Below are positions 7,201-61,125 of a stretch of DNA of 64,000 bases, piece after piece. This stretch comes from Lepisosteus oculatus (taxonomy: Eukaryota; Chordata; Actinopteri; Semionotiformes; Lepisosteidae), in contig NC_090703.1 in the NCBI RefSeq assembly GCF_040954835.1, forward strand, positions 9,233,001 to 9,297,000, written 5' to 3'. The notes below the pieces were generated by a model. It had not been told where the DNA came from. It did no database searches and saw only the letters and a program-made list of their open reading frames with translations. The position numbers and the translations under genes are program-made. The stretch's first letter is position 1. Every line of letters starts with the position of its first letter.

Positions 7201-10200
7201 AGTGGAAGATGCATTAACACTCCTGGCTCCTTCCAATGTCTGAGCTGTGATGCTGGGTACAGGGCACAAAGTGGAAGATGCATAGGTAAGAGGGATCAAA
7301 GGTGACATAATAAAATGAGCAGTTGTTTCAATATTGCTTATAGCTTTCCTAATTGCCATGGGGCTGGAAAAATCCCTAATTACCGTTGAGAGAATTGCAG
7401 CGTGGCAGATCGTAACATTATAGCGTTTAGATGAATCCTCTGGGAATCACCACCAGCCTTCCCTGAATCTCAAACTCACAACCAGGTTTTTTTGGCTGAA
7501 TTATATTTCCGCTTTCACTATTATTAAGGCATTTTGTACCCTTAAGTTATTTTTTGGTCCTTAGCAAGGTAAGAAGATGCCAAATGCATTGCAGAAATGT
7601 ATGCAAAGTGCTCTTTGCTTTAAACAGAACCAGCCTGCACTTTTTGGCTTGTATTTTGACTTTCAGAAGCAGTGTGTTTGGATTTTTATGTGGCCCAGTG
7701 TTGACCATTTTCAGTGGCTGAAATATTTTTGAGATATCTGCTGTCTCTGCCCCTCCCATTGTGACCTCCATGCGAGGCGCATGTTGCTTAAACATAACAC
7801 CATGTTATTTCAGACCTCGGGTACCTTTTACCACTGTAAAGATTGCTTGTATAACCTCAATTTGGGAGAGTCAAAATATTTTCATTAGGCTGTGGCCTTA
7901 AACAAGCCTCTTCTTATTTTTGGATAACCTGAAGTTGCAAAACATTTATTCAGGAAAGTGTGAAAAGGAGAACACAGTGGCCGTTCAAGTGCTCTCAATG
8001 GCAGTGATTTGCCTCATCTTGCAGAGCCACCCACGTGAACTGCTGTGTACCTCAGAGGCAAAGACTTATCAGTTGAGTCAGTAATGGGACTGGTTTGCCA
8101 CTAGGGTGCTGCCAGAAGATAAAGATTGGTGTTAACAGTAAACTTATCTGGAAGCTGTGTAATTGACTACATAAAAAGAAAATTATATCAGATTTAATAA
8201 GAAGCAAAAATAAAATGTAAAAATGAATTCTCAAATGTATCATTTTAGTTGAAGATTCCTTTTGACACCATTTCTGTATTCTTTATCCTGGTGGGACCCC
8301 AACACTTTGATACAAACCATTAAAGCAAAAGAGAATCTGATGTGAATAAAGAATTGTGCAAAAATCAGATTTGAGCTCTGATGAGATGTATACAGTAGAT
8401 TAAAGGAGAAATTAGGGGTGTTTTGAAAGACTGAAAAAAGGGGTATTTATTTCTGTCGGTGGTCATAGTTCTGACTATAAAGGAAAAACAAAGAGCACAT
8501 TGTGTCCTCAGTCCTCCTGAAACTGAAAATATTGTAACGCTTACGGCCGACAGGTACTGTGTGAGAGCCGGCTTACAAGAGCAGTGACGTCGCCGTCCTT
8601 CTCTGTGATAGCAGGACTACAGCTACTGGGCTGTAGAGAGATCTCTCTTTAGCTCACCGGGCTGGGTCCCTGCTGAGTGACGCTGGAGTCTTGGGTTCGA
8701 GCCCCTGGCAGTGGGGGGCCGACCTAATGCGGCAAGGGCGCCCGCCTGAGCCCCCGTTGCGTTACATTGGTGTTAGAAGCGGGGTGGGATAGCCCTTCGC
8801 CGGGGACGGCGAGTTAAGCGGGGGAGAGTGTAACGCTTACGGCCGACAGGCACTGTGTAAGAGCTGGCGTACCAGAGCAGGTGATGTCACCGCCCTTCCC
8901 TGTGATAGCAGGACTACAGCTACTGGGCTGTAGAGAGATCTCTCTTTAGCTCACCGGGCTGGGTCCCTGCAGAGTGATGCGGGAGTCCCGGGTTCGAGCC
9001 CCCGACGGTGGGGGGCCGACCTAATGCGGCAAGGGCGCCCGCCTGAGCCCCCGTTGCGTTACAATATATATAATATTAAATATTGTTGTGTTAATGTCAC
9101 ACATGTAGCTTGTTCTAACATGCAGTAGTAAGAGCAAATATAGTACTAACAGTGCCAGAACAAGGATGTCAACTTGCCTTGCTATCATGTACAAAGCTGC
9201 ATTCTTCAAAAGCTGTCTTGTGATTTCAGTCTTAAGGCAAGTGAACTACCGTTCCTCTAAATTGTTTCAGTAAATGAACTTTTTTTTTACAAAATCTTAC
9301 TTTAACTCTTGAAATTATAAAAAGAGCAAAAAGAAAATAAGCAGTCTACATTATTAATTGGTAATTTTAAACAAAAATCAGCCGTATGATGACATTTCCC
9401 CAACAAATGAACCCTGAAAACTGAGGCAAATGGTTTCATAAAACTGAACTGCTGTTTTAACAAATGCTGACTGCAATTAGAATTAAATTAATAATAAAAA
9501 AGAACTATGAGTGCAAATGTGGAGTTTTAATAGAACCTTGTGCCATTCATATGGTAAATTAACTCTGCTAAGTAGTACCCCACTGACTGCCAGTTAATCT
9601 GCATTCTGAAACTGAAAACAAACTCCAGTCGACATTCAAGCTTATCGTGGAAGGGGTTCAAAGATGCAGAAAGATTAAAAAAATAAGATTTTAGGAATGG
9701 ATGACAGAGATCTGGCACTGACTTCTACTTATATACACAACAAAGATTGTTCTGTGTTTTTGTTGATTCAATGACTTGCTGCATTTTTCCCTTTCTCCAC
9801 ACATGAAAGAGATGTAGTATAGGCATGTAACTTCACGGCATTGGTCCACAAATGCATTAGGAAAGTACCTTAAATCTTTAAAAATCTTTCATCTCATTTC
9901 AGTTCCCTGCCTGGCAAGTATTAAGATTCTAAAAAATATTGTTTCTTCTTAATTCTGGAGGTTTACCTAGTATATTCTACAGTATTAGTGTGTGAATGTT
10001 TATACAAGTTGTACTGTAGGTATGCACTGTGTGGATACTTTAATGCTTGTGAGTGTATATAACTGTACTGTACAGTATATATAAATAAATATAGGAACAA
10101 ATAAAGGTTTATTAAAGTATGACACCCAAAGCAGTCTCCACAGCCGAAACGTTGTGATTCTTTTCTTCTCTTTTCAGCATGGAAACAACCTTTAATTGTT

Positions 10201-13200
10201 TCTTTGCAGCCTACACATGCTAACACAGCTACCTACTTGAAATATATATAAATATATAATCGTTTTTTAGAATTTGTCCTGAGATCAGGCTGTTTCTGTT
10301 GGTGTATGGTTATCTTAACATACACTTTTATCCTCTGACTGTTCCCAGACGTAAATGAGTGTCTTGTCCCTGGAACCTGTGCCAATGGAAGATGTGTCAA
10401 TTCTGAAGGCTCGTACAGGTGTAGCTGTAGCCCAGGTTACCAAGCAACACCAGACAGTGGGAGCTGCCAAGGTAGGCCTCTAGTTCAGATTTCAAAATTC
10501 AAATTTTAGGCAAGGTTTGCAGTATGAAGGAAACTTTTTTGAAAGAAAATTAGACAGCCAATAACAGCTTGTGTATTTACTATCAGATGTTGATGTTACC
10601 TCACAGAAAATGCTAAGATTTTCCCATTTTTTTATTGATAGCCAGTTTTAATTCAAAGTTTTGAAAATATAACAAAATGAGATCAGTTTAGTGAAGTCAA
10701 CATTTCCACTTCTCTTGGTCATCCTGTAAGTCAACCTATTGACAGGGTGTTGAGAATTTCCAGATTTTAATTTAATGTGTAATCAAACTTTATATTTGTT
10801 TTCTACTCTTCCTCTCAAAGATGTAGATGAATGTCTTCTGCCTGGGGTCTGTTCCCATGGTAACTGTGTCAATCTGGAAGGCTCATACAGGTGCAACTGT
10901 AACCTCGGTTACCAGGAGTCGCCAGACAGTAAGAGCTGTGAAGGTACAGTAGGCCCGGAAAAATGTCGATCGTTAAAAATGTAAACTAGGACTAATTTCA
11001 GTAAACATTTTTAGAAACACTCCATACTTGCAATATAGATTTACATGTAGTATATGGAACTGTTTTCCAGTTGGCCCACAGCTCTGTGAGGAGAGGACTT
11101 TTTAACCCTTCTGTGTCTTATGGTTAGAAAATATACTTTATGTTATAAATATTATCTTCACTCTCTTCTCTTTTGGCTTCAGACATCAACGAGTGTGCAA
11201 CACGTAATGTGTGTCCCAGTGGTATATGCACCAATTCTGAAGGTTCCTATTCATGTACTAGCTGCAGGCCTGGATATAGGAAATCGGCAGATGGGCAGAC
11301 ATGTGAAGGTATAGTAAAGTTTCACCAGCTTTGAAAAATATACAGCTAGGACAGAAACTCAAATGCATAGAAATCATATTGTGTCAATTAATCATGTACT
11401 GCCCATGAAACATATTGCATCATTACATTGTATCATTCTTTCAGTAGGGCTGTTGGCAGTTTGATGTTGACTTGTTCTTGGCTACCAGATTGATTTGCAT
11501 TCTGACACATGCAGTGCATCTAAGTTTCCTTGCCTGTCTTTGTCCCAGATATCAATGAGTGTGCATTAGCCTCTGTCTGTCCCGGTGGAGTTTGCACTAA
11601 CACATTAGGCTCCTACACATGCTTGCAGTGCAGGAAGGGCTACAGGCTTTCCCTGGAGAAGCAGAGGTGTGAAGGTTAGTGTGATGTTACCTACCTGGGT
11701 ACACCCATGTCACTTATTACAGCAATTACCTGTCATTCTTTTCAGAAGAACATAAGTAGGAGGAAAATAGAGAGGAGGCCTTTCAAACCATCTAATATGT
11801 TAGGTTGTTAGTGACTAAAGGATCTGTGGATCTCAACTAACCCCTTTTGAAAGCAGCCAGGGTGTCAGCTTCAGCAAAAGGCATTCACAACCCTCAGTGT
11901 TAAAAGTGCCTCCTTCTCTTGGTTTTAAATACACTTTCATATGGTTTGTAATTGTGTCCTCTGGGTTGAATTTGTCAGAGCCATTAAGGATTTTCAATAC
12001 TTTAATCAGATCCACTTGTAGTCTCCTCTGCTCTGGACTAAAAATATCTTTTAGCCTGTAAGTGTAGGACATACCATTAAATCTTGGAGTACACAGTAGC
12101 TGGTCATCCAATGACATCATAATCACATGCTAATACAGTAGCGTCTATTTGTTACATTTTGTTCCTAATACTCCTGTCATTTAATTATAAGCATTTCATT
12201 GCCTGGTCCATAGACATTTTGTTTCTTTTGAAGAACCTTGGGTTCTCTTTCTGATTTCCTTTGGGCTCCCCCTCCTTCCGTATTAAATATATTGGAATTT
12301 AGGTTCAATATATTTTCTTGCCTCAGGTTAATGTACATGGAATTGTGCCAATAGCCTGCACCATCAAAAGATTTTCACTGTAGATTTCACAACCACACTG
12401 TGCACAGCACACAAAGTCCTTAGCCTCTGGTTGTGTTTAAGGATGGTGCATCTCCAGATATTTTCCTTTCCATGGTGCAGGCGGGATTCTAAAAACTACT
12501 GGTTTGATCCTTGCTGGTTTGCTTCTCAGTGCCCAACGTCATGACTTAAGGTTTTCACAAATGGCAGCTGTTAGTTAACCCACTTATCAATTACTATCCC
12601 ATAGCACAGTAATGTAATCTGAGATAGTAACCTTCTCAGATGAAAGCAATAACCAGAAAGGCATTACAGCAAATGTCAGAAAGCAGTGAAGAGATCTGGT
12701 AGGAAAATAAATTGATAAGTGTGATACAGCTGGAAGGCTCTTACACAAATGTTTTTTTGTTGTAGTATTCTACTTAGCCTGGTGATGATTTTTTTTTCTT
12801 GTGGTATCCTTACAGATATCAATGAATGTGCTTCCCCCTCCATTTGCCTCATTGGAATATGCACTAACACTAACGGATCATACTTCTGCACAACCTGCCC
12901 TATAGGATACAGACCAGCAGCAGATAGACAGAGCTGTGAGGGTAAGCTAGCTAAATGGATTTTAAATGTTATTGCTTCAGTTTGTAACCAACTTATTGGA
13001 GCTGGTTTTCTTTACAAAGGCTCTTTGTAAGCCTTTTATACTATGATCAGTATTAATGGTGCTCTTTTTATTAAAAAAAAAAACATTTGTCTTTTCTTCA
13101 TGGATGTGTTCTATTGTATCATTTGCAGATATCGACGAATGTGCATCCTTTAATGCGTGCCCAGCTGGAATCTGTACCAACACTGAAGGTTCCTTCTCCT

Positions 13201-16200
13201 GCACTAGCTGTGGTCCTGGATACCGAATATCAGAGGATGGACATCAGTGTGAAGGTATGGAAATTCCAAATGTATAAGGCATGCTTATACAGTATGTTTT
13301 GCAATATCCAATTCTTCTGTTCTCCAGGTTGCTGACTGCTAAGGATGTTTCTTAACACAGTGTTTTTTCTTATTTCCTCTTTGATTCCTTATTATATTAT
13401 GCACATTCCCTAACTTTGAGTTCTGGGTTAGCCAGCACTGTGTTGACTCTTTGTCTTCAGAAAGTAAAGTTTATTTCTTTTTTCACTCTAATTTAATACA
13501 CTATCCTCCTAGCTGCATAAATAAACTAATTTAGCACTCGTTCAAACAATGCTAGATTTCTAATTAGTTCCAGGTGTATCTTCTCACTGACTGTGAGTTT
13601 CTTGGTGGACAACCTGCAAAGCTTTTCTCCTGCCTTTTTATCTTTTTCTTCTGAGTTATTTTTTCTCTTGTTCTTTTGTCTTCTGAACTTTTTGTCTTAG
13701 ACATTGACGAGTGTGCTGTGCCTGGTGTTTGTTTTAACGGAGTGTGCAACAATAATCCAGGGTCCTACTCCTGTATCACCTGTGGGACTGGCTACAGGCC
13801 GTCTGCAGATGCCAGCACGTGTGAAGGTAGAAGAGCCCTATTAATCAAGAACTGTCATTAAATTGTCATTAAATAGACCTTTTAATCTTTGCATTTCCAT
13901 TTTAAAGTATCCAGATAGTTACACTATTTCTAAAAAAAAAATCGGAAAGTTCCCAGGTCCCTGAACCAGTAAAGGCAATCATTCGGATCACAATTGGGAA
14001 GCAGCAGTGTGGTGAATTTGTCAGGGCTCTGCACTTGAAACTAGAGGGTTGTGGGTTTAAAGATTAGTTTGGGCTCCAGTAAAATGCGCATTAGTGTAAA
14101 TGGATACACATTAAGTTGCTTTGGCTAAAAGCATCAGCAGTATAAATGAATAAAAAATAAGTAAATATACTGAAAGCTTATCAATCCTTATAAACCTACA
14201 GCCCAGGCTTGGTGATGAGCTGTCATTAGTTGATGGCAAATAGAATTCTCCAGATACCAGTGCATAATTAGCCAAGTCCAGATGGTTTTTCAATGGGCTT
14301 GAGTTCATTAGAGGATAAATGGCTTGTAGAAGCTAGCTATGTGGCTGCGCTGGAGCCAGTAAAATGACAGTGTTATCACTGAGAGGTGCCATCTGACTTT
14401 ATGCTGCTGTGGATGCTGTTCATCACAATGTAAAAAAATGGCAGGTAGCTCAACCTTGCGGGTTCTTGGATAAACTGTCCCCATCCATCCCACACAGGTT
14501 AAACAATTATACTAGTGAGTTGAGGTGATAATATTGGAAGAAAAGTGCCAATATCAAAACATAAACAGAGAAATAAAATGTATTTAATGCACACCACTGA
14601 TTTGTGAAAGATATAATTGCCCCTCATCCTTATAACAAGATCCTACAAATGTCTGTTTCATTTTTAGTTTTCAAGTGGTTGTTTTAATACAGGACTGTAT
14701 TTTTGTCTGTCTTCTACTCTTCCTCTCGAAGATGAAGACGAATGTCTTCTGCCTGGGGTCTGTTCCCATGGTAACTGTGTCAACCTGGAAGGCTCACACA
14801 GGTGCAGCTGTAACCTCGGTTATCAGGAGTCCCCAGACAGTAAGAGCTGTGAAGGTAGGCCTGTGAAAATGGTAACGATTTCCTAATGGAAATTAGGGGG
14901 GACATGTACCCATTCCTGAGTACAAATACAGGCCACCACACTGCTTTTTCTTGGTCACACTAATAAATACCCTTCCACAATTTCCAACACCACTACCAGT
15001 CCAGTAACCTCTTGGGAGTACATCAACATAAGGCCAGGTTGGTGTTCCTCAAATGAAGCTCTTTAAGGCCAAAGTACCCTTTCTTGTCGGGATTGTCAGT
15101 ATCTGAAATATAAATATTGACTAATTTTGTTCACATTTTTGTGCAATTAGACAGCACCGGCATTCCAATATATTGTTTTATTATGTATTGAGAACAGGAC
15201 AGCTACTGTATGTCATTATGCTCTCCAGTCTTTACCTTCATATGTCCAGCTGATTCTCAGATGTGAGACTGTAAAATGGTATAAGGGCTTTTCCAGCTTC
15301 TCTGTGATATATAGTACCTTCAGCTAAAGAGTGACCTCACTCTCAGCCAAAGTAATCTGTTCAAAACAAGTAGTATGAGTTTCTTTTATTTCATCCTGCT
15401 GTTCATACCTTAAGTGAATCTGAAATTCCTGCTGACATGAATGAAAAGGAATAATAATGTGTGATATACATTGTATTTGTGTGCTTGTCATTAATTTTCA
15501 TCATCTGTTTTCATCTTTTTGTCCTCTAAACTTTGTCTTAGACATTGACGAGTGTGCTGTGCCTGGTGTTTGCTTTAACGGAGTGTGCAACAATAATCCA
15601 GGGTCCTACTCCTGTATCACCTGTGGGACTGGCTACAGGCCTTCTGCAGATGCCAGCACGTGTGAAGGTAGCAGGGCAGCATTTAAAGAGATCTCATTAT
15701 GTTGACGTTTTAATTCTTTAACATGCCTGATGTTTTACTACCCACTGGTAATCTAAACTCACTTGGCTTTGTTTCTGTCCCTGTATTTCCTCAGATGTGG
15801 ACGAGTGCTCTTTGGCAAATGTGTGCCCAGGCAGGCTGTGCAAGAACACCCAGGGCTCGTTCTACTGCAGGAGCTGTGAAGAGGGCTATGAGCTGTCAGA
15901 AGATGGCTACGGCTGTGAAGGTAGAATCACATGGCCAGGTTGCCCAGCTGCGCATGCAGGCTGGCTGTAATCTCTGAAGTAATGGCTTGATAAAGCTTTT
16001 GGATCTCTGAGTTACTACAAACATTCCGGAGAGAATAAGATACAATCGTTTTCGGTATTTGTTATAAAAATAATAAACTTTCTCTAAAGTCCAAATAAAG
16101 CATTCTTGTTTAACATCATTGATTTTTTTTCCCCCAGTCTGGGCTCCATTTGAGCTTGGACAGCTTTATAGCTGCCTTGTCTAGTGTTTTTACTGATGGA

Positions 16201-47722: not shown

Positions 47723-56231
<8,509 letters not shown>

Positions 56232-57222
56232 TTTGGATAATAAATTAACAGAAAATACCTTTAATGCTAGTAATTGATGCTTAGTAAACTTAGAATTTCA
56301 ATACAGAAGGTTTAGGGTCTTTTTTTAATGTTGTCGTTTTTGAAAATTAGCTATGTTTCTTTTGCAGATAAATCGGCTTTTGATCGAATGATACGTACTG
56401 TCGTATTTAACACTGTAGTGCCATCTACTAGTTTATCAGCATGCTCAATGCTTGTTATAAATAAAAAAACATTCTTACTTAACATCTCATCCTTAAATTA
56501 TGTAAATGAACAATTAGGGTGCACTACATTGCGTTTTTCTCAAACTTTCCGCTCGTCCATTATTAATGTTCAGGCTCCCTCTCCAGGATACATCAGCACC
56601 GTTTACATGGGAATTACATTACACTACAGGTCAAATGCACGCTACAGTCGTACGCAATACAAAAGGTACACGTTATCTTATCATCCCTGCCATACATTAC
56701 ACTATCATACAAATGCGAAGCATTAATTTAAATAATCTTAAAATAAAAGCGCCTCTAGCTACATTCAACAAACCTAATCCCAACTGTACTTGACAAAGCT
56801 CGTCTAAATTCTATACGCGATTGACGCCTCATTTCTGAAGTGCGGCTTCACCTACGTCGAAAAGCACAATGAACTTCGAAGGTGTGTAAATAAAATGAAC
56901 GGTTTACGGAGGCTTGGCCATAGGATCAATCCGAATAAAAGTAAACTCTACACAATGCGTTATACGAACGCATAGCAGAATTACTGTCGGTCCCCCAGCA
57001 TTCGTCCAAGGAGTTCTGGGACATGTCGTTCACTGCCTTGTCTGAGCGAGTGAGAGCTAACGAACATAGAGGGGGAGGGAAAACTACAATTCCCAGAGGT
57101 CAACGCGACAATCGGCACTTCGCGCAATATACTTTCCAACTAATCAGAATATTACGCTCCTGCAAGGGTGGAGCTTTATATTTAAAGAGAAATGTGATAT
57201 CGCGACATCATTTCGAGGAAAA
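56232..57222. promoter_or_regulatory. Shared intergenic region between divergent POMT2 and GSTZ1
   Basis: About 1 kb separates the POMT2 start codon (minus, 56231) from the first possible GSTZ1 start codon (plus, 57223). Divergent genes this close usually share a promoter region. No exon is visible. The GSTZ1-proximal 250 bp is more CpG-rich than its surroundings and holds a ZNF143-type motif and a TATA-like TTTATATTTAAAG (about 57175). The open frame across 56,328-56,726 has no supporting features. Confidence 0.55.
57083..57097 (+). promoter_or_regulatory. ZNF143/STAF-type motif
   Basis: ACTACAATTCCCAGA matches the core of the ZNF143 (SBS) consensus, a motif enriched in vertebrate housekeeping and bidirectional promoters. 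A weaker inverted relative (GTTCTGGGACATGTCG) lies at 57013-57028. Confidence 0.55.
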
Positions 57223-57240
57223 ATGAGTGCCGCGCTAAAG
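57223..57240 (+). CDS. GSTZ1: Alternative GSTZ1 first coding exon (candidate)
   Basis: The exon has an ATG in context GGAAAAATGA and six codons (MSAALK), ending AAG before a GTAAAA donor, phase 0. The same phase and the same final Lys codon occur in the second candidate first exon at 57951-57968, so either could join exon 58062. It lies just downstream of a TATA-like sequence and the ZNF143-type motif. The donor is weaker than that of the 57951 exon. Confidence 0.4.
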
Positions 57241-57950
57241 GTAAAAGTGCGTGTATGGATCAACGCAGTGTCTAACCCCAAAAACACATGGCGTATACGT
57301 GAAAGTATTAGCATAACCTTTTAGGAAGATGAACGGTTTCAAAAATGTGAGACACGCTCTCGTTACGTGATTTGCTGTGAGCTCTTCTAATTCCACCCTT
57401 ATAATATACATACGTCTGCAGTACGAATGATTCATTATTCTGGCCACAGTAAATAGGTGTGTGTGCATTGAATATGTATTAAGTTCAGTTCATTGCCATG
57501 CCATTGTCCTGATTTAAACTAATTTATGCTTGTACTACACAGCAGGAGACACTGCTAGAAGTGGCTACAAGTTGAAAATCTTTCATTTTTGACGGGGATG
57601 GGGTAAGACTGCACATACCTACTTCGCAATTGTTCTTACTGTGCAAACAAAAGGATCTAAATATAACTTTATGTAGCAGATTTCGGTAAAATGGCACGCA
57701 TGCTCGATCTGCACAACGGGAGTCAGATCTGGGGTTTGTCGTTGTTAAACGTTCCTGATCCCAGACTTCGGACTGCATCGCTCGTCTTGATGGTATCACC
57801 ACACGCATGGGTGTGCTTAGTCATGCTGGTATGAGAAAGCCAGGAGGAGGATTTTTGGGACGTTATCTGATTGGTTGCCATAAAAAGAAAAGATCGCTAT
57901 AACTTAACTGATATTCACTCTTTGTCAAGGCCCCGTTATATTACGGTACT

Positions 57951-60900
57951 ATGGCAACTCAAACCAAGGTGAGAATCAAATTGCACAAGTGTTCTGGAAT
58001 CCAAGTGTAAAACCGAAGTAATGGCAACAGAATTACATTTAAATTCTTTCGTCTCTTGTAGCCCGTCCTGTATGGATATTTCAGGAGTTCCTGTTCATGG
58101 AGAGTTCGAATCGGTGAGTTCTTTCTGATAACAGTAAGCTTGCAATTGGCACAGAAAGCCACCTTTTGTTTTTAGCATTTCATTAACTATGTTTACGTTT
58201 TGCCTTTTATACAGTACTTTTTCAAAAACTGGCATACACCTAATAGAAACCAGATGTAAAAGATTACTTAAGTGGTTCTTGTCTTGCCTTCCATAGCTCT
58301 TCTGCTGAAAGGTATTGCATACGACCAAGTCCCAGTGAATCTTATTAAGGATGGAGGTCAGCAGGTAACCTTAAACTGGTAATTTTAAAATGATTTTGTT
58401 TAGTTTAAAATATGCAATAAAATATTGGAAAGGTTAAGTGTTTTTTTTTTTGTAGAACTACCCACTTATTTGAAAGACCTTAAAACAAAAATTCAACCAG
58501 AATAGTGGGACTTAATGAAATCGTAAAAGTACAGTATTAAACCAGCCAGAGCCATAGAGCTCATAAACCAGTTCATATTTAAATCCAGTTCTCAACATCA
58601 CCCAGTTGCCTCATACAAAAATCTATCATTTCTTGCTTATTGTAGCTAACAGAACAATACAAGACCTTAAATCCCATGCAGCAGGTGCCTGCAATGTGCA
58701 TCGATGGCATCACTCTGTCCCAGTCGGTAAGTTTGAATTGGGAAATCCTGGTAACTTTTGGAAACATGGCTGTCCGGACAGTTAAAGACCATTGAAAGCC
58801 AACAGATTCCTTTTACAGTAAATTGGATCCAGATTAAAACATCTTTAGAACAGTTAAGCAACAAAACATTAATAAAAGAATGTGTTGATGTGCTAATTAG
58901 AAAAATATTTTCCACCTTTTCCCCCTAATTTTATTTCCCTTCACATTCTGTACTACTCAGTTGGAAATAGACATATTTTCCATTCTAACCCATATTCCTT
59001 GCATTGCAGGAATTCAAAAATTAAGTAAACATTGTATGCATGCAGGTTAGAGACACTGATGTACTTATACCCGTTTAAACGTTTTCTCCCATCATCCCCA
59101 GCTTGCAATTATCCAGTACCTTGATGAGACCAGACCTGGACCACGCCTGCTCCCAGCTGAGCCCAAGCAGCGCGCCCAGGTGCGCATGATCTGTGACCAC
59201 ATTGTCTCAGGGATCCAGCCCCTTCAGGTAACAGAATGCACAAGTTAATGTGAATGCCCCTTGGCTGAAACCTACATTCTCCCTTCAAGTAACTCATACA
59301 AGCCGACATCTGTGATAAATACCATGATACAAATTCTTCTTAATTAAAAGAAAATCTTCCTTTAAGCTATCGCCAAGTAATTGACGATTATTACATCACA
59401 GAGAGGGTGAACAGATTACTATATTGAGGTAATAATCTTGTCAAAAGCTGTTTGATTTTAACACAAGGTACTTTAGGTGCAGAATGTTCGGAAATGAATG
59501 AACATTCTGATCAATTGTCCATACGATACCAATAAATGAGCTAATTAAAAACGTTTTATTAGAAACAAATGCTTAAACTATGTGATGCAAGATCTTTTCT
59601 GTTCCCACAGAACCTGTATGTACTACAGAAGATTGGGACTGATAAAGTGGAATGGGCACAGCATTTCATCATCAGAGGTTTCCAAGGTGTGTCTGAGAAC
59701 TGTCGCATTGCACCCTACCCACTTCATAGGATTTCCTGCAGAACATTCTACATACAGTAGCGTGACACTTTCTTCTTTGCTTTTTAAAGTCCTGAAACAT
59801 TTAAAACATTTATTCTGTATCTTATTGTATATAGTACATAAATTCTCAACAGGAACATCACATTATTGTGCTGCAAGCTAGTAAATCATTATAGTTTTTA
59901 TTTCGGACTGTCAAGATATGAATGATTCCAAACTGTTAACCACATCTGGTGATTCTGGCTTAATTGGACATGGCACTTTGCCTGGGCTGATAAGTGTTCA
60001 CCATGTTTCTCCAGCACTGGAAAACCTCCTGCAGCAAACATCGGGAAAGTACTGCGTCGGCAATGAGGTAAAGTAAAATGCATGAAAAAGTTTAAGTCCA
60101 TAATCTACTGAGCAAGTCAGTAGAAGGTCTTCTGGGAAGACTTTAATACCTCATTTTCAGTTTGACTTCGCCTCTCTGCAATTGTCCAAGTGCCAAGGTT
60201 TCTAAATTTGGTCACTATAGAAGTTATGAACTTTGCACTCACATAAGATAAGCTAGCTAAATATTTAACATGTACAAAGCTGTGCAGGCCTTTTCTTTCA
60301 GTAAGTCTTGTTTTAGCAAGTGAATGACTGATGCTTTCTCATTTTTGTAGATCTCAATGGCAGATGTTTGCTTGGTACCCCAAGTTTATAATGCAGAGAG
60401 GTAAGACCAGGACTGGTTAATGAAATGATTTCTCAAAATGAAAGATGGCAATTAAGTAAGTGGCCTTGGTCTACCCAAAATAACTTGAAATCATCCTTTC
60501 TAAACTATGAAAGGTATTTGTTCAACATACCTAAAACATTTGTGCATTTTAATAAACACAACCCAGAAGGTTATGCAGTTTATCCCCATAGTGCTTTCAG
60601 TTAAAAGGGATACACCTATTTGATTCCTGAGTAAAAGCTATATACAATTTCTGAAGATTTGGTGAAACTCACTGTGACAAAAACAGTGTTTTTAATTTTT
60701 TCTCTAATGCTGCCTGTAACACGGATGCACTAATTAATTCTGACCACCTCAAGCATCATAGGTTTTTACATTTTAACTGTCAAAGCAAGTCTCCAATAGA
60801 GAAATAAAACTTCACCACTTAAGGGAACCTGCGTTTATCAATTAGATTTAAGGTGGACCTCACTCCATTCCCAACTATCAAGAGGCTGAACCAGACCTTG

Positions 60901-60972
60901 CTGGAGATGGAAGCATTTCAGACGAGTCACCCCTCATGCCAGCCTGACACCCCAGCAGACCTGCGTGTGTAG
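57951..60972 (+). CDS. GSTZ1: Glutathione S-transferase zeta 1 / maleylacetoacetate isomerase, complete (216 aa)
   Basis: The enzyme isomerises maleylacetoacetate to fumarylacetoacetate, the penultimate step of tyrosine and phenylalanine breakdown, using glutathione as cofactor; it is cytosolic and mitochondrial in mammals. Exons are 57951-57968, 58062-58113, 58297-58364, 58646-58726, 59102-59227, 59611-59686, 60015-60067, 60351-60400 and 60846-60972. All phases join and the total is 216 codons plus TAG, the same length as human. Seen are the zeta-class glutathione motif RSSCSW (residues 14-19), NLIKDGGQQ, the cis-Pro region NPMQQVPA, the gamma-glutamyl-binding SQS, the helical C-terminal domain with [13 protein letters not shown], and the tail [12 protein letters not shown]. 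The start MATQTK was chosen for its strong donor (AAG|GTGAGA) and fish-like wording. Confidence 0.96.
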
Positions 60973-61125
60973 GACTGCTCTGCAGCTGCTCTACCAAAGT
61001 GGAGCTGGAAAGGCCTGTCCAGTGCTCTTCAATCTGGAAGCACGCAGTGGAACTGCAAAATGACCAGGTGTGAAAAATAACTGATTTATGACGGAACACT
61101 GTACAAGTGAAGTCCCAACGTTAAA

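Follow-up and report, generated by a model that had tools for sequence, protein, structure and literature searches.

TRIMs with tRNA-like LTRs have been described in fungi, animals, and plants under the name Helenus (Kojima, 2024; PMC10886601). According to the accessible part of that publication, animal Helenus elements have 4-bp target-site duplications (TSDs), most families carry TRGCY, YGG, and GGTTC boxes, vertebrate families use tRNA His, Leu or Lys as primers, and most families contain no functional tRNA. The same part reports tandem arrays of LTR-11_DR in zebrafish as well as recent activity in goldfish, and its Table 1 gives coelacanth, sterlet, paddlefish, cypriniforms, one catfish, and milkfish as vertebrate hosts. 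Helenus is also mentioned in the accessible part of PMC12859917, and neither "Helenus" nor "TRIM" occurs as a whole word in PMC11785729. Cassandra elements resemble the gar family described below in their pol III promoter within short LTRs, which is predicted in our case, and in their long LTR-core arrays (PMC7215508, accessible part). The accessible part of PMC10886601 gives 18 bp for their terminal RNA repeat, which compares with about 16 proposed here. Cassandra differs in being a plant element with a 5S rRNA promoter, whereas the promoter found here is tRNA-like, and its pol III transcription is called validated in the same source, whereas here it is predicted from sequence. Finally, tRNA-derived SINEs, which are moved by LINEs (PMC10886601, accessible part), share the A/B-box pol III promoter but lack LTRs, a primer site, and a TSD with a constant length of 4 bp.

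The element analyzed here occupies positions 8533-9063 of the window, i.e., the whole 64-kb stretch of DNA that was studied. A sequence-only reading had recognized an LTR element at these exact coordinates, with LTRs of 234/235 bp, a 62-bp core, and a 4-bp flanking repeat, and our analysis agreed on every one of these values. The LTR-core-LTR structure (234/62/235 bp, 531 bp in total) contains the following features:

8529-8532, no strand: left target-site duplication ATAT, based on the sequence and on 4-bp duplications in other copies
8533-8766, + strand: 5' LTR of 234 bp with ends TGTAACGC...GCGTTACA, from direct-repeat comparison
8635-8650 (LTR 104-119), + strand: proposed R of the 5' LTR, palindrome AGAGAGATCTCTCT followed by TTT, which abuts the A box, based on an invariant run and a breakpoint cluster, at a putative RNA start
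8650-8661, + strand: A box of the 5' LTR, TAGCTCACCGGG, 11/12 to TRGYNNARYNGG
8694-8704, + strand: B box of the 5' LTR, GGTTCGAGCCC, 11/11 to the consensus
8767-8828, + strand: core of 62 bp, the whole internal region, which recurs in 38 copies
8768-8783, + strand: primer-binding site, complement of the tRNA-Leu 3' end at 14/16 positions in the window copy
8816-8828, + strand: polypurine tract adjoining the 3' LTR, from the sequence
8829-9063, + strand: 3' LTR of 235 bp, from direct-repeat comparison
8914-8933, + strand: possible hairpin CTACAG...CTGTAG that extends into the beginning of the proposed R; copies can adopt one of two folds, and their pair counts are mixed
8932-8947, + strand: proposed R of the 3' LTR, with TTT at 8945-8947 as a putative weak pol III stop
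8947-8958, + strand: A box of the 3' LTR, TAGCTCACCGGG, 11/12 to TRGYNNARYNGG
8991-9001, + strand: B box of the 3' LTR, GGTTCGAGCCC, 11/11 to the consensus
9064-9067, no strand: right target-site duplication ATAT, from the sequence

Like other TRIMs, the element has two LTRs, is shorter than 1000 bp and non-coding (no open frame of at least 100 aa within 8533-9063), and carries a primer site and a purine tract at the ends of its core. The latter two had been noticed before, and both were found in the window copy and in the 38 copies. Against what we take to be the 3' end of tRNA-Leu, the primer site was complementary at 16/16 positions in two genomic copies (L029 and L034). The G+C content reached 61-65% in the LTRs and core, compared with 39.6% for the window, and the CpG observed/expected ratio was 0.77 in the element vs. 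0.34 in the rest of the window. TTTT, AATAAA, and TATA were all absent from the + strand of the window element. The alignment of its two LTRs (234 sites) showed one gap and 17 substitutions, of which 13 were transitions and 4 transversions; the divergence is 7.3% (K2P 0.077). These differences were unevenly spread, the two longest intervals between them measuring 72 and 56; the chance of such a sum was 0.002 if differences were uniform and 0.011 with CpG sites weighted tenfold, in which case the largest interval alone had a chance of 0.106. This pattern reflects in part a rate variation along the LTR, as in other copies.

We searched the host assembly (1.2 Gb, 813 contigs) with the whole element, scoring 40 of 2913 first-look candidates with 84 matches listed, and with one LTR, scoring 40 of 2546 candidates with 55 matches; 2913 and 2546 are numbers of candidates and not copy counts. 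Thirty-eight LTR-core-LTR copies were taken (L001-L030 and L034-L041), a set selected by likeness to the window copy and therefore missing divergent relatives. Five of them (L004, L008, L020, L021, and L026) were set aside as array or complex loci, leaving 33 simple copies. Six of these (L009, L010, L012, L022, L024, and L040, on contigs C456, C616, C487, and C380) had common flanks and a common TSD, which places the element inside a region that underwent several duplications and is found on small contigs, and 28 independent copies were thus retained. Exact 4-bp target duplications flanked 23 of the 28, vs. 163 of 756 (21.6%) cross-paired flanks. Target bias explains this high cross rate: ATAT was found 11 times, GTAT 4 times, ATAC 3 times, ATAG twice, and three other 4-mers once each. 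The copies without a strict 4-bp duplication were L002, L003, L018, L039, and L041, the last being part of a longer composite with ATAC on both sides. The core measured 61-62 bp in all 38 copies, and its mean identity to the window core was 94% in the 28 independent ones. Among the 20 loci obtained with the LTR search, two of which (L042 and L048) repeat L001 and L002, 13 were solo LTRs, with no further unit within about 1.5 kb, and 11 of the 13 had 4-bp TSDs. The genome searches, one of them with a single LTR as proposed at the outset, thus returned a recurring core, TSDs at most copies, and solo LTRs.

Tandem arrays were also present. In L031 (contig C8), 22 LTRs alternate with 21 cores and ATAT is found on both sides; L033 (C19) has 5 LTRs and 4 cores between ATAT and ATAT, and L032 (C5) has 12 cores. 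The divergence between the LTRs of one copy ranged from 0 to 10.7% in the 28 independent copies, and four of them had no substitution at all, which shows recent activity of the family. The moderate age deduced earlier from a divergence of about 7% is plausible for the window copy, which is among the older ones, but does not extend to the family. Of the 95 genome matches to TTACANTGGTGTCAGAAGTGGG, which joins the LTR end to the canonical primer site, the 20 examined all carried the TRIM core and included no autonomous partner. Exact patterns of the element were absent from viral contig collections and from prokaryotic genome contigs, as expected for a vertebrate element.

A tRNA-type promoter was predicted in each LTR. 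The A and B boxes, scored against consensuses that we take to be canonical, are 44 nt apart (start to start) in both LTRs of the window copy, exactly as the sequence-only reading had claimed, and this distance was the same in both LTRs of 38/38 copies, with scores of 10-11 of 12 for the A box and 8-11 of 11 for the B box. At the stringency of the window pairs (spacing of 30-70), the two LTR pairs were the only ones on either strand of the 64-kb window, and only 3 of 40000 random 235-mers with the dinucleotide make-up of the element held such a pair. TRGCY, YGG, and GGTTC all occur in the window LTRs, and many copies have GGG or AGG instead of YGG. Column conservation was analyzed in 66 LTRs from 33 copies, the duplicated region being represented by one of its six copies; L020 and L021, included in this set, overlap in one array and have one LTR in common. 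In the A box, T, GCTCA, and the last G were invariant, the second column was A/G and the ninth mostly C/G, while in GGTTCGA of the B box each changed position had variants in 2 to 4 of the 66 LTRs. Conservation reached 0.924 for the A box, 0.972 for the B box, 0.964 for U3, and 0.953 for the whole LTR, so the boxes were not clearly more conserved than the LTR as a whole. The longest invariant run was GATCTCTCTTT at LTR 109-119, followed by R (the A/G column) and GCTCA of the A box; the chance of an 11-column invariant run was 0.013 given 105 invariant columns out of 235. In addition, TCTCTCTTT was intact in 66/66 LTRs.

No TTTT was found on the + strand of 33/33 copies, which is weak evidence since shuffled sequence of the same make-up lacks it about half the time (0.514). 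The counts for one pair of the hairpin stem in the 66 LTRs (TA 36, CG 11, CA 13, TG 4, CT 2) were mixed and do not prove a stem; covariation was rejected as evidence for it, with CA, TG, and CT pairs beside TA and CG. ARAGORN predicted no tRNA in the 64-kb window, and Rfam gave no match at gathering scores in the window; in the element, relaxing the threshold to E = 10 brought up three chance-level non-tRNA matches and still no tRNA. A functional tRNA or other known RNA was rejected on these negatives. As far as these searches can tell, the element is tRNA-like in its promoter boxes and is not a recognizable tRNA.

A tRNA-SINE that is dimeric or arranged in tandem with a spacer, and mobilized by a LINE, could also show two tRNA-like units in direct repeat and arrays with a period of about 298. 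Target duplications of SINEs are longer and variable in length, whereas those seen here are exactly 4 bp; the termini TGTAACG...CGTTACA, the primer site, the purine tract, and the solo LTRs with TSDs also speak against a SINE, and no tail was present at the element ends examined. We rejected this explanation, which is exceedingly improbable, on the fixed TSDs, the solo LTRs, and the primer site. The LTR interpretation put forward earlier therefore stands against the SINE duplication that had been named as a challenge to it, the core being consistent, 4-bp TSDs and solo LTRs being present, and the A/B boxes keeping the same spacing. Another alternative is an ordinary TRIM transcribed by pol II, in which the tRNA-like boxes are irrelevant remains of a SINE once inserted in the LTR. 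The A-box columns are indeed below the LTR mean in conservation and the B-box columns only slightly above, and neither ARAGORN nor Rfam recognized a tRNA. However, the window element has neither TATA nor AATAAA, the 44-nt spacing and the box scores are maintained in both LTRs of every copy, and the block with the longest invariance extends into the A box. We therefore regard the pol II alternative as unlikely. A non-autonomous TRIM of the Helenus kind, with a predicted pol III start and the cDNA route outlined below, is in our opinion a highly probable explanation.

The tested features of the gar family fit Helenus, to which it is likened by description and not by family sequences. Within the accessible part of PMC10886601, both are TRIMs of less than 1000 bp with A and B boxes in each LTR, a primer site, and a purine tract, and both have 4-bp TSDs, solo LTRs, and tandem arrays. 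The putative tRNA-Leu primer of the gar family is among those of vertebrate Helenus, and the gar element, like most Helenus families, has no functional tRNA. The sequence-only reading had suggested a possibly undescribed design; it was already published in 2024 as Helenus, with several fish families. The host order of the present family is possibly absent from Table 1 of that paper, and the accessible text describes neither the palindromic composites nor the palindromic R found here. Our results demonstrate, in one more vertebrate genome, the existence of tRNA-promoter TRIMs that are both young and mobile.

What is new here is a cluster of breakpoints at LTR 104-110 and a group of inverted composites with two U5 ends. 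A scan of 84 loci revealed aberrant copies whose LTRs lack the 5' part but reach the 3' end, with 22 exact ends in 13 loci plus one in L041 (121). When both arms of a palindrome are treated as one event, and L079 (the same as L078), an edge-cut piece (L072), and a split full-length LTR (L069) are left out, 18 events remain; this number does not include LTRs truncated at the opposite end (L028 and L080, which are one element, L063, L076, and L078). Eleven of the 18 fell at LTR 104-110, immediately upstream of the A box (119) and adjoining the longest invariant block, and none of 100000 random sets had 11 of 18 within any 7-nt window. The cluster includes palindromes in L065 (104/105), L078 (104/105), L032 (105/110), and L055 (109/123, with the nearer arm counted), one arm of L004 in inverted orientation (109), 5' ends that abut unrelated DNA in L044 (104), L062 (104), and L073 (110), and joins between the purine tract and the LTR in L004 (107), L062 (107), and L075 (104). 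The seven other events were L069 (128/131), the inverted arm of L075 (174), L004 (189), L008 (199), L063 (123), L064 (179), and L041 (121). L062-L064 were picked for their truncated-looking matches, so some selection bias is present in this set. The sample with the least selection consisted of loci found by the LTR end and primer site (20 of 95, 17 independent after leaving out L082-L084, part of the L032 array, and L079, which repeats L078), and there 5 of 7 events were at 104-110 (14 of 100000 random sets).

Seven loci (L004, L008, L032, L055, L065, L069, and L075) had U5 at both outer ends with matching 4-mers beside them, the duplication being less certain for L032 and L008, whose flanks are AT-repeat-like. 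L078 also has inverted halves, but with one U3 and one U5 end, and in L076 a fragment of an LTR lies inverted at a distance of about 190 bp. Five of the 17 independent loci of the least selected sample (L032, L065, L069, L075, and L078) had inverted halves. At the inverted junctions of L008 and L004, a reverse primer site (CCCACTTCT or CCCACTTCTGACACCA) lies directly before the LTR, which resumes at 199 or 189; it may be the trace of a primer or template switch. Helenus palindromic composites were not found in the accessible part of PMC10886601 or in the literature searched, and that part describes no palindromic R, mapped breakpoints or mapped RNA start.

These observations could be explained by the way the element is copied. 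Directed by the A and B boxes of the 5' LTR, pol III would start about 15 nt before the A box (at about LTR 104), read through the core and the 3' U3, and terminate at the TTT that immediately precedes the 3' A box, TTT being a weak pol III terminator. With such a start and stop, both RNA ends would share about 16 nt (R), namely AGAGAGATCTCTCTTT, the palindrome plus TT. A tRNA-Leu would prime the first strand and the purine tract the second, and the enzymes of a helper element, probably Gypsy, would integrate the copy. Since R is palindromic, the first short cDNA could sometimes snap back or land on the GAGAG of the purine tract. In the former case, the cDNA, ending in the palindrome complement, would fold back and prime itself to give inverted copies with U5 on both sides; in the latter, copies without U3 in their last LTR would result.

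The same cluster could arise from DNA breakage or recombination at AGAGAGATCTCTCT with no relation to an RNA 5' end. The palindrome could itself attract breaks, the junctions lie inside it, and the purine-tract joins show GAGA microhomology. Breakage would nevertheless favor the center near 110-111, where L073 ends, whereas several ends at the outer edge (104) keep the whole palindrome, next to the purine tract in L075 and next to unrelated DNA in L044 and L062; the latter two argue for an RNA end rather than for breakage of the DNA at the center. L073 (110) and the L069 junction (128/131) do not argue for an RNA end. The seven two-U5 loci with matching 4-mers also point to cDNA made before integration. 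Breakage as the source of the cluster therefore seems to us somewhat unlikely, and the best reading combines an RNA start near LTR 104, which we infer, with cDNA snap-back at the palindrome there. We propose tentatively, with slightly less than even confidence, that a predicted pol III start at a palindrome leads to frequent snap-back of strong-stop cDNA and to many integrated two-U5 inverted dimers, that the 5' end of the RNA of an animal Helenus can be read from the breakpoints (about 15 nt upstream of the A box, with R of about 16 nt), and that the helper integrase accepts two U5 ends. The aberrant copies offer a way to test if Helenus transcription begins at the tRNA-like promoter, and the two-U5 inverted insertions would bear on end recognition by helper integrases.

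Elsewhere in the window, EGF_CA/EGF exons extend over 12725-40436 (+ strand) and belong to a gene that we take to be LTBP-like; the element may lie in or beside this EGF gene. Two pairs of direct repeats of about 150 bp are near these exons, one at 13674-13830 and 15517-15671 (96% identical, ~1.8 kb apart) and the other at 10797-10946 and 14708-14857 (94% identical, ~3.9 kb apart). PMT and PMT_4TMC stretches at 48901-54696 (- strand) indicate a POMT-like protein O-mannosyltransferase, the PMT match being just below the cut-off. No repeats of at least 30 bases were found at 55500-61000. The region 56001-60000 had a CpG observed/expected ratio of 0.71, vs. 0.35 for the whole window, with a G+C content of only 39%.
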